Shown here one piece after another: positions 4,631 to 22,947 of a stretch of DNA of 22,947 nt. The DNA comes from a virus. Under the pieces are notes generated by a model. The model was not told the origin of the DNA. It searched no databases and saw only the letters and a program-made list of their open reading frames with translations. The first letter of the stretch is position 1, and each line of letters opens with the position of its first letter. The position numbers were made by a program, and so were the translations under genes. The stretch lies in the IMG/VR virus record IMGVR_UViG_3300050015_001119, positions 1-22,947 of that record; one strand, given 5' to 3'.

Positions 4631-4968
4631 TATTTCACCTCGATAAATTCAAATTCAAAGTCATACACTGCGTATGCCTTGCGGCTAAACTGAAAACTGT
4701 CCTCAACAAACCGAACAATATATTCTGTTGAATCGTTCGGGTTCGTCCATGTAAACGCCATAAATGATCCGAATTTGCTTTTAAAGAAATCTGAAACATC
4801 CGCCATCTCCGCATGCGTTCTGTTATTAAACCGAAGTGTCCATTTGCGCTGTGGATTCGCCCATTTGCGGCGTCTCTGCTCCGCGCCGTTCTCAAACTCC
4901 GAAACAAGCGTCTTATATTCCACTGCCTCATCAATGAGAAAATCCGGCAGATATGTGAAATCGCTCAT
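4630..4968 (-). CDS. M: Minor tail protein M-like (tail tip, distal tail family)
   Basis: This 112-aa protein has the size of lambda gpM (109 aa) and sits between the tape measure gene and the L-like gene. The 'VSEFENGAEQRRRKWANPQRKWTLRF' region, the aromatic 'MAFTWTNP' and the C-terminal beta-rich 'YDFEFEFIEV' are typical of the Phage_min_tail/DUF2460-like family. It is expected to form part of the ring at the tail tip, to which the tape measure C-terminus binds. Its ATG overlaps the tape measure stop (ATGA), so the two are probably translationally coupled. Confidence 0.85.
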   Translation of the reverse strand: MSDFTYLPDFLIDEAVEYKTLVSEFENGAEQRRRKWANPQRKWTLRFNNRTHAEMADVSDFFKSKFGSFMAFTWTNPNDSTEYIVRFVEDSFQFSRKAYAVYDFEFEFIEVK

Positions 4969-6509
4969 GTGTAACTCCTGATTACCGAACGTATCTTGCC
5001 GTTGTTATAAATATCCTCGGCAATGGCATTTGATAGCATCTTGCGGTTACGCCAAACATCTTGGGCGTCCCACGCCTGTATGACCTGATTCACATTTATG
5101 GTTACGTTCCCCTTTGCGGACTTTCCTTCGTTTAGGGATCTCAAATTGTCTGATCCGCCTAACGCGCGCATGCCGCGTCTGGATAAAACCCCTTCGCCTG
5201 TCTGCGCAACAATCGGCACCTCATCAATCGCAAGGCCAGCATGCGCTCTTATGGGTGAAACCTCCCCGCCGGAGTGATACACCATCCCACCTTGATGAAA
5301 GAACGGGATCATGCCCGGAAAAATCGAACCTATGGTTTTGACAAGAATCATCTTGGCGAAAACTTCTGCTAAAACTTCCAACATCATATTGCCCAGTTCA
5401 GCGAAATAATCTCTGACATCATCGATCTGGCCTTTAAAAGCATCGCTAAAGAAGTGTTTAAACACTGCCCCAAGAGATCTTGCTGTCCCCTCTGCCATTG
5501 ACTGAATCGCGTCAAACTTCTGCGCTACTTCTTCGATCTTGATATCCGTGCCTAGGTTTTTAAGCGCGTCGACAAATCCGGCAATCGCATTTTTTGCCTT
5601 GTCGTATCCTTTGACTAAACTGCCTTCGCCGGTAACCAAGACGTTTGATATCTTGTTGCCGACTCTATCCATCTCCATATCAGAAGCTTTAATAAGGCCC
5701 TGAAGATTGTCCCGAAACGTTTTGATATGTTGCGAGGCTTCACGATACGGCTCGCCTAACTTTCCCGGAATCTTGCCCAAGACATCGTAGAATTTCTCTA
5801 AGCCAAGAGCCAGATTGTCGAAGCCGACCAAAAGGTACTTGATCAGTTTCACAAAACCGATATATACCATCTGACAAGCAATCTCGATCGCGTTCAAGAC
5901 CGGCACGGCAACGTCTCTGAATTTAAGAAAGACGACAATAAGCCCGGCAACGACAACCGCGATCCCCACAAGCCATGGATTTGCCAAGGCAAATAACGCA
6001 AACTTAGCCACCAAATCGATAATAATTCCACCAAGCCTCGTGAACCTGCCAACCAAAGACAATACGATTCCGCCGAGCATTAAAAATATTCCGCTAATCG
6101 CGATCGACTGAATAATCAAACCCTGAGTCGCTGGCGACAATCTGTTCCAAATATTGAGCAAATTACCGAAAACATTGGCCACCTGATGCACAACCGGCAC
6201 CAATGCCTCGGCGATGCTCACTCTTAAACCGATAAACGCGTTATCAAGACGCTTTAGTTCGTTGGAAACGGATAGCGAATACTTCTCTGCGGATTTGAAT
6301 GCGAGTGCCAAGGGGCCCGTTAACGCGCCGCCCATGAAGATAAGATTCTGACCGACCTGCGATATTTCGCGGCCAACCTGACGCATAGTCCCGCCAAGCT
6401 GTTTGCAGGAATTGGCGAACTTCTGAATGTTGCCCTCTATTCCCTGTAGACGCTTGGTGATTTCGTCTTTTAACTTCATCACAATCTCAAGTTCACGATT
6501 GGTAGGCAT
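4965..6509 (-). CDS. H: Tape measure protein (lambda gpH-like)
   Basis: This 514-aa protein is the tail length ruler and probably enters the envelope during DNA ejection. The N-terminal 120 residues are helical and polar ('MKLKDEITKRLQGIEGNIQKFANSCKQLGG'). Residues about 130-195 form a long hydrophobic stretch with several potential membrane helices. The C-terminus carries the glycine-rich signature of tape measures ('FFHQGGMVYHSGGEVSPI', then 'VAQTGEGVLSRRGMRALGG'). At roughly 1.5 Angstrom per residue it predicts a tail tube of about 75-80 nm, shorter than lambda's. It starts immediately after the stop of the T reading frame (TAG at 6510-6512) and ends in an ATGA overlap with the M-like gene. 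Confidence 0.92.
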   Translation of the reverse strand: MPTNRELEIVMKLKDEITKRLQGIEGNIQKFANSCKQLGGTMRQVGREISQVGQNLIFMGGALTGPLALAFKSAEKYSLSVSNELKRLDNAFIGLRVSIAEALVPVVHQVANVFGNLLNIWNRLSPATQGLIIQSIAISGIFLMLGGIVLSLVGRFTRLGGIIIDLVAKFALFALANPWLVGIAVVVAGLIVVFLKFRDVAVPVLNAIEIACQMVYIGFVKLIKYLLVGFDNLALGLEKFYDVLGKIPGKLGEPYREASQHIKTFRDNLQGLIKASDMEMDRVGNKISNVLVTGEGSLVKGYDKAKNAIAGFVDALKNLGTDIKIEEVAQKFDAIQSMAEGTARSLGAVFKHFFSDAFKGQIDDVRDYFAELGNMMLEVLAEVFAKMILVKTIGSIFPGMIPFFHQGGMVYHSGGEVSPIRAHAGLAIDEVPIVAQTGEGVLSRRGMRALGGSDNLRSLNEGKSAKGNVTINVNQVIQAWDAQDVWRNRKMLSNAIAEDIYNNGKIRSVIRSYT

Positions 6510-6821
6510 CTACTCCTCGCTCTCTTTCATACGCGCGATCTCCCGCTCGATTAAAATAACCGCCTCAACAAACTTCGCGGGTTGATCCAGCCAACCTCCG
6601 AGATTGGGAAGATAGCCTTTGATGAAGAAAAAATACGCGCTTAGATATTCAACGCTTTTTCTTTCGACAAGTATTTTTGGACATCGCGTAAACTCCCAAT
6701 CGTTTAATTTCCACATACCGGGGATCGGCGAATCAGTCTCACAACCCCGCTCATTCTTTTGAGCGCCTGAGCATTTGTGGCAGTCCAGCTTGAACTTATT
6801 TAACCAGACCGCCAGTGTCAG
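6510..6821 (-). CDS. T: T frame of the GT tail assembly chaperone, reached by -1 frameshift
   Basis: This is the downstream half of a lambda GT-type fusion. After slippage at 6821-6827 the -1 frame runs without a stop for 103 codons to TAG at 6510. It encodes 'LTLAVWLNKFKLDCHKCSGA' onward and contains a CxxC plus two more cysteines (GCE, RCP), a possible zinc site. The only ATG in this frame that could start it independently (6716) has no Shine-Dalgarno, so translation as part of G is far more likely. The fusion would be 244 aa (141 from G plus 103). In lambda the T segment lets gpGT bind the tail tube protein while G coats the tape measure. The T frame ends one base before the tape measure ATG, as expected. 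Confidence 0.85.
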   Translation of the reverse strand: MTLAVWLNKFKLDCHKCSGAQKNERGCETDSPIPGMWKLNDWEFTRCPKILVERKSVEYLSAYFFFIKGYLPNLGGWLDQPAKFVEAVILIEREIARMKESEE

Positions 6822-6827
6822 TTTTTT
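6779..6827 (-). promoter_or_regulatory. Programmed -1 ribosomal frameshift signal (slippery heptamer plus stem-loop)
   Basis: On the minus strand the last codons of G read ATA AAA AAC TGA. This places a perfect X XXY YYZ heptamer, A AAA AAC, at 6827-6821 directly before the stop. A 7-nt spacer (TGACACT) follows, then GGCGGTCTGG (6813-6804). That pairs over all 10 positions, three of them G-U, with CTGGACTGCC (6788-6779) around a 15-nt loop. Heptamer, spacer and stem all match standard -1 frameshift signals, and the product joins G to an open T frame. Confidence 0.87.
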
Positions 6828-7243
6828 ATTTCGTTCTCGCTCAATGTATTTTCAGCCAAAATCACTTCGGACAGCTCATCAATCAACGCCTTTGGAAACA
6901 TCGAAATAATCTCGTCGGATAAGACGTTATAATTCTTCCCGTTTACCGGCATAGACACGGTGTCAAACTTAACCGGCTTCTTATCCCGCGGATCGAGAAA
7001 ATTCTCCAACCCTTTAAGCCCGAACTTCACCACCATAAGATTGCGCTTTGAGGCATTGATATTCGCTTTGGCCGATTCCTTCGGATTCTTTGAACTGAAC
7101 TCGAAACTGGTCGTTTGATCCTCGATAAATGCCCTTAAATGAGAATCAAGAAGACCAAGATTAAACACAGTAGGATTACCCGCGTCAGAATCCAGTTTTG
7201 ATTTGTAAGGTTTGCTTTCATAAATATTTATTCCTGTAAGCAT
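6818..7243 (-). CDS. G: Tail assembly chaperone G
   Basis: This 141-aa protein lies between the tail tube and tape measure genes, the fixed position of the G chaperone in long-tailed phages. It is polar and has no hydrophobic segments, consistent with a soluble protein that coats the tape measure during tail assembly and is absent from virions. A strong GAGGAGG site precedes the ATG. Family assignment rests mainly on position, size and the frameshift at its 3' end, because G proteins diverge strongly. Most ribosomes should stop at TGA 6820-6818, and a minority should continue into T. Confidence 0.85.
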   Translation of the reverse strand: MLTGINIYESKPYKSKLDSDAGNPTVFNLGLLDSHLRAFIEDQTTSFEFSSKNPKESAKANINASKRNLMVVKFGLKGLENFLDPRDKKPVKFDTVSMPVNGKNYNVLSDEIISMFPKALIDELSEVILAENTLSENEIKN

Positions 7244-7258
7244 GATTTTCCTCCTCGT

Positions 7259-8401
7259 TTAAAGTGCTAGGATTGTTATTTCATCGTCACCCGGCGTGAC
7301 TGAACCGTTAAGGCAAAATGCGCTCTTTGCCAGCTGAAGCCCGTCTCTGTCTTCGTCATCAACCTTCGTATATTGCGCCTTTGGAATGTAAATCCTGAAT
7401 TTGTTACCGGCAACCGACCCGATAGTGCAGTCAACAACCATCTCCGCGCCCGAGAACCACTTGGTGTGAAAATCATAGGCCGCGACCGTTACCATCTCCG
7501 GATTGAATGATCCAGTAACATTACGCCCAGTAATCACAAAGGAAAGAACCCCGCGAACATCATTGACATCATCGCGCACGGCTAAGACGTTGCCGATATC
7601 AATATCCATTTCGCCGATCTTGGCCGAATACGCGTCCACCGAGAAAAGCGCGTTCAGGAATACCGGCGGCTTTGTAGTCTCGTAAGTCACATTCGCCAAG
7701 AACGCCGTATCCGTGACCCCAGCCTCAACGCCTTGAAAATCAAGATCCAGCATGACCGGCTCACCAGACTTAAAACCAATCTTCACCTTGCCGCGCGATC
7801 CCTTAATGAGTTTGCGGGTGCCGTCTTCATAACTCCCCTGCGTCAAACAGGGAATATTGTCAGAAACAAGCTTAAATTCATTGCCCACAGTCGTCGGAAC
7901 GGATGAGGTGACAGCGGTCGCAGTGGACGTGCCGCCGGTGATAGTTTCACCGGTCGAGAACGTGCCTGATACAGTCACAAAGTAAATAAACGTCGCTCCG
8001 GTCGCGGTATTTATAACCACTCTGCCTTTGGCCGCAGACGTACCGCCTGTAATGGTCTCACCGTGCTGAAAAGGCCCATTAGTAACTGCGCCTATGTTCA
8101 TAGACTTAAGTGCGTTCACCCCGAACCCGCACGCCTGAAGCAACTTTCCCCATTCCGGCACCGTTATAGCCGTGCCGGATCCTTTTAATTCCAAGCGATA
8201 AGAAATACCCGCTGTGCGCTTACCCGGTGTTTTACCGATATTCGAGAATGACGGACGAGCGGGATTGCGATCAAACATCGCCACATCAAAACTAACCTTC
8301 GGGTTATAAACCAATAGCTTCGCATCCGCGGCCACGAGCGTTTCAGCAACACCCTCCACCGCCTCTAGCTTTGCGGCCAGCTGTCTTTTACGCGTTAACA
8401 T
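7259..8401 (-). CDS. V: Major tail tube protein (lambda gpV-like)
   Basis: This 380-aa protein lies between the tail terminator and G genes, where lambda encodes gpV. Its ends ('MLTRKRQLAAKLEAVEGVAETL', 'KVSFDVAMFDRNPARPSFSN') resemble tail tube proteins of the Phage_tail_TTP type. It is longer than gpV (246 aa), partly because of an insert at about residues 100-175. That insert carries two copies of an 18-residue unit sharing 'GETITGGTS' (109-126 and 146-163), so it is likely an exposed decoration of the tube surface. A GAGGAGG site precedes the ATG. The capsid and tube genes are both expected to be highly translated. Confidence 0.85.
   Translation of the reverse strand: MLTRKRQLAAKLEAVEGVAETLVAADAKLLVYNPKVSFDVAMFDRNPARPSFSNIGKTPGKRTAGISYRLELKGSGTAITVPEWGKLLQACGFGVNALKSMNIGAVTNGPFQHGETITGGTSAAKGRVVINTATGATFIYFVTVSGTFSTGETITGGTSTATAVTSSVPTTVGNEFKLVSDNIPCLTQGSYEDGTRKLIKGSRGKVKIGFKSGEPVMLDLDFQGVEAGVTDTAFLANVTYETTKPPVFLNALFSVDAYSAKIGEMDIDIGNVLAVRDDVNDVRGVLSFVITGRNVTGSFNPEMVTVAAYDFHTKWFSGAEMVVDCTIGSVAGNKFRIYIPKAQYTKVDDEDRDGLQLAKSAFCLNGSVTPGDDEITILAL
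7913..8077 (-). repeat. Two-copy coding repeat in the tail tube gene (GETITGGTS units)
   Basis: Codons at 8077-8024 and 7966-7913 encode GPFQHGETITGGTSAAKG and GTFSTGETITGGTSTATA, which share 12 of 18 residues at a 37-residue period. The DNA copies are diverged, so this looks like an old tandem duplication or a repeated beta-strand motif rather than a recent event. Confidence 0.75.
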
Positions 8402-17055: not shown

Positions 17056-18351
17056 TTATTCTCTGGCCGCTTTCTTCCCAGAAAACTCCTCCCATCGTCT
17101 CACGGCTACATCACAGAAGACCGGCTCGATCTCCATGGCGAACACCCGCCTATTCAAACGCTCGCCCGCGATGATTTGCGATCCCGACCCTGAGAACGGC
17201 TCGTAGCAAATATCACCCGGGATCGTATGCACCCGCATTGGTATCGCGAACACCTCGGTGGGCTTCACAGTCGGATGATCAATGCCCGGATTGCGTTTCT
17301 TACCTTCCCAATCAAGTTCCCAGACATCGGTATGATATTCCGGAGTCGTCGGATCGCCCGACCTTAAGAAATCAACAGTCCACACACTGCCGATAGATTT
17401 ATTCTTTGGCTTATACTCCGGCCGCTGACCCTTGATCCACATCAAAAGGCACGGCTCATGCCGCCACGAATAAAATGAAAAGGTCAGAATCACGCACGGC
17501 TTGACCCAAACGATTTCCTGATGAATGAGGACACCGATTTCTTTACACAGGCCCTCAATATCCGAACGCCGCTTGGAAGCGTGCCACATATACACGGCCG
17601 TTTTTTCTTTAATCTGCTTAAGCCCAACGGTCAAAAACTTACGCATGAAATCTATCGCATCGGGAATATCGATCTCATGATAAACATTCGACCAATCACG
17701 GCCGCCGTTAGGACGATTCGCTCCGGTATAATCCACGCAATACGGCGGGTCGGTCGCAAACAAGCTTGCCTTGTGACCGTCCATGAGCCGCAACACATCC
17801 TCATCGGTTGTGCTGTCACCGCAAAGAAGCCGGTGATCACCCAAGATCCATAAATCACCTTTTTTGGTAATTGTTTCTTTAGGCGGCTCGGGAATATCAT
17901 CCGGCAAAGTTCTGCCGTCTCCAATATTCTCGACCCCCATATCCCCGACGCTCTCCCGAAGCTCCTTAAGCCGAAGATTTATGTAGTCATCCGATGCCTC
18001 TTTTCGCAACCTCTCAATAAGAGGGATAAGTGACGCTGTCCATTCCCCGCCGATCTCGTTATTATTTAACGTGAGATTCATGGCCTGTTCTTCGATCTCA
18101 TTCAAATCAACCATAATGACCTTTACGCTCTCGACGTCATACTCCTGCAAAATTTTGTATCGTTGATGGCCGCCAACGATCCGCATGTTGCGCTTGTTGA
18201 CCACGATCAACCCGACATACCCGAACTTTTCCAAACTGTGCTTTAGACCGGAATACGCGCCTTCGGATATTTCACGCGGGTTATACGGTGCGGGATTCAA
18301 ATCCGCGACCTTGACCTCGACTATTTCCGGCTGAACGTTAATTTTCCCCAC
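17056..18351 (-). CDS. ParB-like nuclease domain fused to beta-class DNA adenine methyltransferase
   Basis: This 431-aa protein has a ParB/Srx-type N-terminus (residues 10-105, with 'NPAPYNPREISEGAYSGLKHSLEKFG' and 'IVGGHQRYKIL') and a DNA methyltransferase C-terminus. The latter has the catalytic motif IV 'DPPY' at 201-204 and the AdoMet-binding 'FSGSG' at 386-390. The order IV then I marks the beta class, and DPPY usually means N6-adenine methylation. The start is GTG at 18351 with a perfect AGGAGG. Such fusions are common in phages and mobile elements and may protect phage DNA or time packaging or replication. It sits between replication and packaging genes. The target sequence is unknown. 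Confidence 0.88.
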   Translation of the reverse strand: MGKINVQPEIVEVKVADLNPAPYNPREISEGAYSGLKHSLEKFGYVGLIVVNKRNMRIVGGHQRYKILQEYDVESVKVIMVDLNEIEEQAMNLTLNNNEIGGEWTASLIPLIERLRKEASDDYINLRLKELRESVGDMGVENIGDGRTLPDDIPEPPKETITKKGDLWILGDHRLLCGDSTTDEDVLRLMDGHKASLFATDPPYCVDYTGANRPNGGRDWSNVYHEIDIPDAIDFMRKFLTVGLKQIKEKTAVYMWHASKRRSDIEGLCKEIGVLIHQEIVWVKPCVILTFSFYSWRHEPCLLMWIKGQRPEYKPKNKSIGSVWTVDFLRSGDPTTPEYHTDVWELDWEGKKRNPGIDHPTVKPTEVFAIPMRVHTIPGDICYEPFSGSGSQIIAGERLNRRVFAMEIEPVFCDVAVRRWEEFSGKKAARE

Positions 18352-21270: not shown

Positions 21271-22947
21271 ATGACACAAATTATTAGATCAAAAGAAAAA
21301 AAACGATTCGTGATTTACACCCGGTGTTCTACCGACGATCAAGCACAAGGTGATTTCACGACGCTGGACGCGCAAGCGCACCACTGTAAAAACATGCTTG
21401 ATGCGTTTGGCTATGAACTTGCGGATCTCGGAAAAAACGGCATCATCAACGATGACGGCTATTCCGGAAAAGATTTGAACCGGCCGGGAATTCAACTGAT
21501 CCTTAATAATATCGAAAAGGAAAGAAAATTTGACGGCATAATATTTTTCAGACTTGACCGCATAACGCGAAACCCGCGCGACCTCTACGCCCTCATCGAC
21601 CTTTTTCGAGACAAGAACGTTGATTTTATATCCGTCCGCGAAAACTTAGACAGCTCAACTGCGATCGGCCGCGTAGTAATAGGAATACTCGGACTCCTCT
21701 CCGCGTTTGAACGCGAACTGACCGGCGAACGCGTGAAAGCCTCCGCGATCGCCCGCGTGCGCCAAGGCAAATGGGTCGGCGGTTTCTTATCCTATGGATA
21801 TAAATTAATAAAAAACGGCGATCCCCTCCCCAACGGCAGACAGCCTCACTCGGTCGTACTGGATCAGGAAGTCGCGCCAAGACTGCAAATGATTTGGGAA
21901 ATGGCCGCTGAAAACAAATCTCTTATGGAAATCGGACAAGAGCTGACGCGCCAAGGCGTTAAAACCCGCCACGGCAAGGACTGGCGCAAGCAAACATTAT
22001 CAACGATTATCAAAAACCCGTTTTATAAAGGGTATATTTTCTACGCGAAAGAAATGCATAAAGGAATTCACGAAGCACTGGTCGAACCCGCGCTCTGGGA
22101 GAAGGCAAACAAAATGCTCGTTGCCAAACTGCCCGGGCACGGATTCAGCCGGAAACCAAAATCATACGATTATTTATTGAGTGGATTATTACGATGCGGT
22201 AAATGCGGAAGCCACCTTATATCGATATCCAACAAGGGGCGATCGGGAAAGAGTTTTCCTTATTACATCTGCGGAAGATCAAAACAAAAACTCGGATGTG
22301 ATGAACTAAGCATCCCGGCGCAAGTATTTGACCGGGCCCTGATCAACTATTTCCGCAAGGCATCTCAGAACCGCGAGATTATAGCCAAAGGAATTGGCGA
22401 TGCCATGCGCGAGGCCCAGCTGATGGCCGGGCGCATCGATACCATGATCAATGAAAGCGAAACAAAGCTGAATGACTGCCAGCATGAAGCCAAAACTCTG
22501 CTGGATCTGGCGATGACCGGCACCGTAACTCAAGGCCCTGCGTACAAAACCAAAATGGCCGAGATTGACAGCCAGATCATAACTCTAGAAGACAAACTTA
22601 CAAAACTGCGGACACAAAAGACGGCCAATGACATGACCGCGAACTCAGCCGACTACCTCCACGAAACCCTGCAATTTGCCATGCAACACCTCGACAAAGC
22701 CCCCGTAGATGCCCAGAAAAGCCTCGTACACGCCCTAATAAAAGACATTGTGATCCATAACGACGTAATTGACCTTAAGATGTACCTCGGCGATCCTGAC
22801 ACAGTTTTGCAAGCCGATATAACCGATTGTGAGCATGATCACGACGGTATAAAAAAGAAAAGCCCCACTCCGGCGCAATGCCGAAATGGGGCTGTAACCG
22901 AACAGAAGCTTGGTGCGTCTGTTCGTCAACAATGGCTCCCCCTCTAG
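21271..22947 (+). CDS. int: Large serine recombinase (phage integrase)
   Basis: This 558-aa protein would catalyse integration and excision. The N-terminal resolvase domain (12-160) has the catalytic serine S20 in 'YTRCSTDDQ', 'DGYSGKDLNRPGIQ' and the conserved 'FFRLDRITRNPRD' at 92-103. The recombinase domain follows at about 175-290. A four-cysteine zinc ribbon is at C309, C312, C334 and C343. A long coiled coil at about 375-470 is the expected regulator of direction. The last 35 residues are low in family signal and overlap a terminator-like hairpin. AAAGG precedes the ATG. It is the only rightward gene, opposite to the early operon. It ends exactly at the right edge of the window (TAG at 22945-22947). 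Attachment sites were not identified. Confidence 0.95.
   Translation: MTQIIRSKEKKRFVIYTRCSTDDQAQGDFTTLDAQAHHCKNMLDAFGYELADLGKNGIINDDGYSGKDLNRPGIQLILNNIEKERKFDGIIFFRLDRITRNPRDLYALIDLFRDKNVDFISVRENLDSSTAIGRVVIGILGLLSAFERELTGERVKASAIARVRQGKWVGGFLSYGYKLIKNGDPLPNGRQPHSVVLDQEVAPRLQMIWEMAAENKSLMEIGQELTRQGVKTRHGKDWRKQTLSTIIKNPFYKGYIFYAKEMHKGIHEALVEPALWEKANKMLVAKLPGHGFSRKPKSYDYLLSGLLRCGKCGSHLISISNKGRSGKSFPYYICGRSKQKLGCDELSIPAQVFDRALINYFRKASQNREIIAKGIGDAMREAQLMAGRIDTMINESETKLNDCQHEAKTLLDLAMTGTVTQGPAYKTKMAEIDSQIITLEDKLTKLRTQKTANDMTANSADYLHETLQFAMQHLDKAPVDAQKSLVHALIKDIVIHNDVIDLKMYLGDPDTVLQADITDCEHDHDGIKKKSPTPAQCRNGAVTEQKLGASVRQQWLPL
22850..22893 (-). terminator. Leftward intrinsic terminator inside the integrase 3' end
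   Basis: AGCCCCA (22861-22867) and TGGGGCT (22887-22893) pair, with an inner CGGC/GCCG (22871-22874, 22880-22883). Read leftward, the stem is followed by TTTTCTTTTTT (22860-22850), a good rho-independent terminator. It would stop transcripts arriving from the right of the window before they run antisense into the integrase gene. Read rightward there is no T-tract. Confidence 0.75.

Follow-up and report, generated by a model that had tools for sequence, protein, structure and literature searches.

The stretch analysed here, hereafter the window, is the virus record IMGVR_UViG_3300050015_001119 in its full length of 22,947 nucleotides, and we describe in it the junction of two overlapping reading frames, G and T, at which a programmed -1 ribosomal frameshift would produce a pair of siphophage tail assembly chaperones, namely, G and GT. 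G (6818..7243, minus strand, as are all features of the junction) encodes a protein of 141 amino acids; its ATG is preceded by a strong Shine–Dalgarno (SD) sequence, GAGGAGG, and its open reading frame (ORF) ends in the zero-frame codons ATA AAA AAC TGA (...ENEIKN). These codons contain the slippery heptamer A_AAA_AAC (6827..6821), which is directly followed by the UGA stop codon of G (6820..6818), as a preliminary description of this DNA had stated. The -1 frame begins at 6821 with CTG ACA CTG and has 103 codons before a TAG (6512..6510), which directly abuts the ATG of the next gene at 6509, again in agreement with that description; when fused to G by a slip, this T frame (6510..6821) would give a GT protein of 244 amino acids. 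On the 3' side of the stop codon, the minimum free energy fold contains a stem of 13 base pairs (5' arm, 6802..6814; 3' arm, 6778..6790) that encloses a loop of 11 nt (6791..6801).

The gene immediately downstream of T (4965..6509, minus strand) encodes a tape measure protein of 514 amino acids (PHROG 1533, tail length tape measure; best E 9e-14), and the one immediately upstream of G (7259..8401, minus strand) encodes a putative tail tube protein (PHROG 290, tail protein; E 6e-16). The gene order is hence tail-tube-like gene, G, T and tape measure gene, with two abutting or overlapping chaperone frames between the tail and tape measure genes. Besides these genes, the 22.9-kb record has a lambda-type terminase and portal, a major capsid protein, a tail terminator and minor tail genes. 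By itself, the heptamer is a common sequence; AAAAAAC occurs at 14 sites in the window against about 10 expected, and the case must therefore rest on position and conservation. What goes beyond chance is the position of the heptamer: the stop codon of G follows it at once, its phase is the correct one, an open -1 frame begins there and a stem comes on its 3' side, and this arrangement is repeated in 53 distinct junctions.

Neither G nor T was matched by any family in Pfam or PHROG (E up to 1) or in NCBIfam (E up to 0.1). An AlphaFold2 model of G, with a mean predicted local distance difference test score (pLDDT) of 80, was found by Foldseek to resemble viral proteins named as chaperones of tail assembly or of the tape measure, among them Mu FS-gp41 and a protein of HHTV-2, with modest E-values and high probability (E 5e-3 to 6e-2, probability 0.77-1.0), and its best matches (E 1e-9 and 1e-4) were unnamed viral proteins. 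No PDB structure matched the model of G, no solved structure gave a meaningful match to G or T, and the T model had no significant match among viral structures. Judged from its model, G is thus predicted to have the tail assembly chaperone fold. Among the relatives, G is conserved down to about 20% identity, and T has conserved Cys residues at positions 14, 17, 27 and 47 together with a GGWLDQP motif; the four cysteines may bind a metal.

Conservation of the heptamer, the stop codon and the stem

Profiles of T and G led to additional loci in viral records, genomes and isolated phages, and 53 distinct loci with an adjacent stop formed the set for counting heptamers and upstream elements. Four distant matches (L044, L049, L052 and L053), to which heptamers were assigned permissively, were not counted as firm, and L054 was left out of all counts. 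The heptamer was found directly 5' of the stop in the 53 distinct relatives, with the same sequence and phase as in the window. Indeed, the base preceding AAA-AAC was A in 53/53 loci, compared with 21% A at third positions elsewhere in G, and the codon to which this base belongs encodes nine different amino acids across these loci. The Lys and Asn codons at the heptamer were always AAA and AAC, while AAG and AAT are the commoner ones in the rest of G. In an alignment of 33 G proteins with identity down to 19%, furthermore, K140, which is encoded by the heptamer, was the sole invariant column, and N141 was nearly invariant. In these comparisons, the heptamer is conserved as RNA rather than as protein.

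In each of the 12 close viral relatives that were found with G, the stem, AAAAAAC and a directly following TGA or TAA are retained, and the 14 chromosomal loci of Candidatus Omnitrophota that reach far enough all had AAAAAAC with an adjacent stop, which is TAG in two of them. When the T proteins were clustered at 60% identity, the 24 clusters, of which the most distant have permissive assignments, had AAAAAAC with an adjacent stop (14 clusters), AAAAAAA with an adjacent stop (1), AAAAAAC with the stop 3-69 nt further on (5), GGGAAAC or GGGAAAA (3) and AAAAAAA with a distant stop (1); UGA, UAA or UAG was hence adjacent in 15 of the 24. As for isolated phages, A_AAA_AAC TAA is present in Alteromonas phage P24, A_AAA_AAC in Agrobacterium phage JP1 and Rhodobacter phage RcZahn, and G_GGA_AAC at the junction in Rhizobium phages RHph_I4 and L338C. 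The idea that the adjacent stop is never UAG, as would point to release factor 2, was true of the first 50 loci and was ruled out by two later ones (L083 and L095) with UAG.

The same relatives bear on two ways in which the frame break might have arisen without any slipping ribosome. The splitting of one ORF, through an error in sequencing or through decay of the gene, has nothing in its favour besides the break itself, and it is already refuted by the relatives: dozens of independent contigs, metagenome-assembled genomes (MAGs), a closed chromosome with two prophages (described below) and isolated phages all have the break at this very codon. We regard its probability as negligible. Alternatively, RNA polymerase might slip on the A run, so that GT would be translated from shifted mRNAs. 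The site is certainly a run of As, runs of nine As are known to slip in bacteria (PMC5009743), and one relative (L043) has ten. The run, however, counts six As in the window and 6-8 in nearly all relatives, the GC-rich relatives carry G_GGA_AAC or G_GGA_AAA instead, and the constant phase, the adjacent stop and the unvarying distance of 6 nt to the stem are features of ribosomal frameshifting. Transcriptional slippage is hence very improbable.

The spacer of 6 nt between the heptamer and the stem falls within the 5-9 nt expected of a stem that stimulates -1 programmed ribosomal frameshifting. While the preliminary description had proposed a stem of 10 bp with a 7-nt spacer and a 15-nt loop, and the pairing is indeed present, those pairs are only the core of the 13-bp helix, and the spacer and the loop are shorter. 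The stretch of 71 nt folds with -21.3 kcal/mol compared with -13.2±2.4 kcal/mol for dinucleotide shuffles (z -3.4). In the window alone, 37 of 400 synonymous shuffles folded equally well, and the stem thus goes only a little further than coding for T would demand; the claim for the stem accordingly rests on the family-wide test, which is decisive. In 45 of the 50 adjacent-stop loci with a mapped stem, the best stem occurs in the same register, and four of the five exceptions (L045, L051, L077 and L087) have a best stem that is longer by 6 nt, which corresponds to an additional two codons in the loop; the fifth (L094) differs. Within the 45 in-register loci, 93.5% of the 13 pairs form, as opposed to 79.5±1.2% (maximum 82.9%, n = 300) under synonymous-codon shuffling; the null is high since conserved residues of T (A4 and V5, D13 and C14) are encoded in the arms. 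The stem overlaps the conserved LAV...LDC codons and is hence doubly used, with pairing that is in part driven by the protein. In the 12 close viral loci, 99.4% of the stem pairs form.

Three pairs change on both sides, namely, 13-35 (CG to UA), 14-34 (CG, GC, UG and UA) and 16-32 (GC, UA and CG), and they rank 4, 10 and 3, respectively, of 1378 column pairs in a G-test with average product correction, which, like the shuffling statistics, ignores phylogeny. We consider from these patterns that the stem is conserved as RNA. No known RNA family in Rfam covers the stretch.

An element that the preliminary description did not mention lies just 5' of the heptamer. In most relatives, an SD-like GAGG is present at a fixed place, ending 8 nt before AAA-AAC; the corresponding stretch of the window (6829..6849, minus strand) has only GAGCGAGAACG. 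Pairing of this region with the anti-SD sequence has a mean of -7.5 kcal/mol in the 53 relatives compared with -6.1±0.36 kcal/mol for synonymous shuffles, and it is weak in the window (-5.5 kcal/mol). In the relatives, the GAGG element may be a stimulator like that of dnaX, where an SD-like element is expected about 10 nt 5' of the heptamer; it is not clear in the window.

The start of T

If T were translated independently, by reinitiation after the stop of G or from an internal start, the heptamer would be incidental. In the window, however, none of the first 35 codons of the T frame is ATG, GTG or TTG; the first such codon is an ATG at 6716 (codon 36), and this ATG has no SD sequence on its 5' side (CCCCGGTATG), in line with the earlier remark that it lacks a ribosome site. 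The same ATG is present in 10 of 30 close relatives and is lost in several relatives with intact T. Another subgroup (7 of the 30, of the L012 type) has an ATG at T codon 3, only two codons past the stop, and annotators of RcZahn, RHph_I4 and L338C have called T as a gene of its own. The 30 relatives nonetheless have no start position in common, one of them (L060) has no ATG, GTG or TTG in the entire T frame, and the heptamer is retained even in those relatives that have an ATG. Furthermore, 53% of the differences among these relatives fall on third positions of T codons before the first ATG of the window, and 49% further on; codons 1-35 thus evolve as codons of the T frame and are hence translated in that frame. 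A translation of T from its own start, which had been named as a possible refutation of frameshifting, was accordingly not borne out by the relatives, and we think it very improbable, if slightly less so than slippage of the polymerase.

Programmed -1 frameshifting into T, in contrast, agrees with the conservation among relatives, the compensatory changes and the lack of a start in T, and from such comparative evidence we put the probability that the locus makes G and GT in this way at about 0.95. The heptamer, the spacer and the stem, the last with compensatory changes, are kept in relatives down to about 30% identity in T, as the preliminary description had suggested one should check, and so is the position of the stop.

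Several observations nevertheless weigh against this reading. First, A_AAA_AAC is a heptamer of low efficiency with E. coli ribosomes (PMC4066793), and to call the site a textbook one, as had been done, is generous for bacteria. A relaxed, queuosine-free tRNA-Asn might have explained the use of AAC; this candidate is not supported, since TGT, an enzyme of queuosine synthesis, is encoded in four of the five host genomes carrying the locus (in one of them as a fragment) and is absent from one incomplete MAG. With the enzyme present in likely hosts, a relaxed tRNA-Asn cannot be invoked. Second, in one relative (L033, near 520-565), the heptamer is broken to GCAGAAAACTAA, and the stem and T are intact. 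A broken heptamer beside an intact T had been named beforehand as evidence against frameshifting; such a case thus does exist, although the site is intact in a near relative (L087). An absolute requirement for the heptamer is thereby not supported, and L033 is possibly a variant relying on the remaining A_AAC tetramer or else a sequence error. The ATG at codon 3 in the L012-type subgroup, the coding load on the stem and the neglect of phylogeny in the stem statistics count on the same side.

Proposed mechanism and comparison with known frameshift systems

In the mechanism we propose, most ribosomes would decode AAA AAC and terminate at the adjacent UGA, producing G. A minority, stalled by the 13-bp stem that begins 6 nt 3' of the heptamer, would slip by -1 on A_AAA_AAC into the T frame and produce GT; the slip would be a tandem one, in which pairing shifts from AAA and AAC to AAA and AAA. 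By analogy to lambda, G would coat the tape measure protein, and the few GT molecules would use their C-terminal part, which here has the four conserved cysteines, to recruit the tail tube protein. The adjacent stop probably holds GT low through competition of the release factor with slippage, because a stop after the heptamer lowered frameshifting in a bacterial system, in which a raised level of release factor 2 abolished it (PMC4373837). A further idea is that the site belongs to a termination-sensitive class, in which slippage takes place partly with the stop codon in the A site and the supply of host release factor sets the ratio of G to GT. Such a class would combine a stop and a heptamer of low efficiency with a stem that serves both as RNA and as coding sequence for the LAV...LDC motif, and would be typical of this chaperone family; we regard the idea as unlikely.

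Frameshifting between G and GT is itself well known. According to the summary of the lambda system in PMC5009743, G acts on the tape measure protein and GT recruits the tube protein. With lambda and its relatives in long-tailed phages (Xu, Hendrix and Duda 2004, cited in PMC5009743), the present locus shares a two-part chaperone gene directly 5' of the tape measure gene, a -1 slip shortly before G ends, a T without its own start and two proteins expected in a set ratio. It differs in the heptamer, which is G_GGA_AAG in lambda, and is set apart by the stop of G directly 3' of the heptamer, the strong conserved stem and the absence of known families for G and T. A g-t frameshift is also known from the archaeal tailed viruses HCTV-1, HCTV-2 and HCTV-5, and the heptamer of HCTV-2 is likewise A_AAA_AAC (PMC5009743); their hosts are, however, archaea, and the comparison covered the heptamer.

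With dnaX of E. coli (SD sequence, A_AAA_AAG and stem), the locus shares an A-rich heptamer and a simple 3' stem; most family members, though not clearly the window, also have the SD-like element, and dnaX of some bacteria has a zero-frame stop directly 3' of the slip site (PMC5009743). The A site is, however, AAG in dnaX instead of AAC, and the product here would be a longer tail chaperone. The transposase frameshift of IS1 uses A_AAA_AAC in a bacterial setting (PMC4066793), but IS1 has no established stimulator and the product is a transposase rather than a tail protein. In Rous sarcoma virus and barley yellow dwarf virus, a stop is also the codon after the heptamer (PMC4373837), whereas these are eukaryotic RNA viruses with other heptamers and other stimulatory structures. 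What distinguishes the present locus is the weakness of its heptamer in E. coli, the conserved adjacent stop and a chaperone pair outside Pfam, PHROG and NCBIfam; we do not claim a new class of signal for the arrangement of heptamer, stop and stem.

Strong comparative evidence thus extends G/GT frameshifting to the phages and prophages of Omnitrophota, a phylum of which hardly any members have been cultured, and to a family of chaperones that is absent from the curated libraries. Also, since a heptamer held to be weak in bacteria has been maintained together with an adjacent stop over deep divergence, the role of the stop in bacterial frameshifting becomes testable.

Probable host, annotation and other features of the window

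In bacterial genomes, T has its relatives mostly in Candidatus Omnitrophota, among others in the closed chromosome of Velamenicoccus archaeovorus LiM. This chromosome has two related prophages, the terminases of which are 87% and 83% identical and the recombinases 65% and 60% identical to those of the window. Given the 14 chromosomal loci of Omnitrophota with the signal and the LiM prophages, the host of the phage is probably an omnitrophote. The two prophages (G002:C1, about 1870101-1886934 and about 1918776-1935163) are some 50 kb apart, and each has its own G/T frameshift site (L082 and L096).

In deposited phage genomes, T is either wrongly annotated or left out. Its N-terminus is truncated in JP1 (L074) and L338C (L076), the gene is absent from the annotation of P24 (L077), and T is called as a separate gene in the records of RHph_I4 and RcZahn; the warning that automatic annotation misses the N-terminus of T was thus well founded. 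In JP1, an annotated tail tube protein gene lies upstream of G with one small gene in between.

The putative tail tube protein of the window (7262-8401, minus strand) has an internal repeated stretch (GETITGGTSAAKG / GETITGGTSTATA) that matches tail fibre profiles and may be a decoration domain that was inserted. The product of 17056-18351 (minus strand), close to the terminase genes, seems, by eye and from the translation alone, to have a ParB-like N-terminus and a DNA methyltransferase-like domain. Finally, a large serine recombinase is encoded at 21271-22947 (plus strand) and is related to the Ccr/XisF type by NCBIfam, far below the cut-offs; the copies that are 60-65% identical to it adjoin both LiM prophages.
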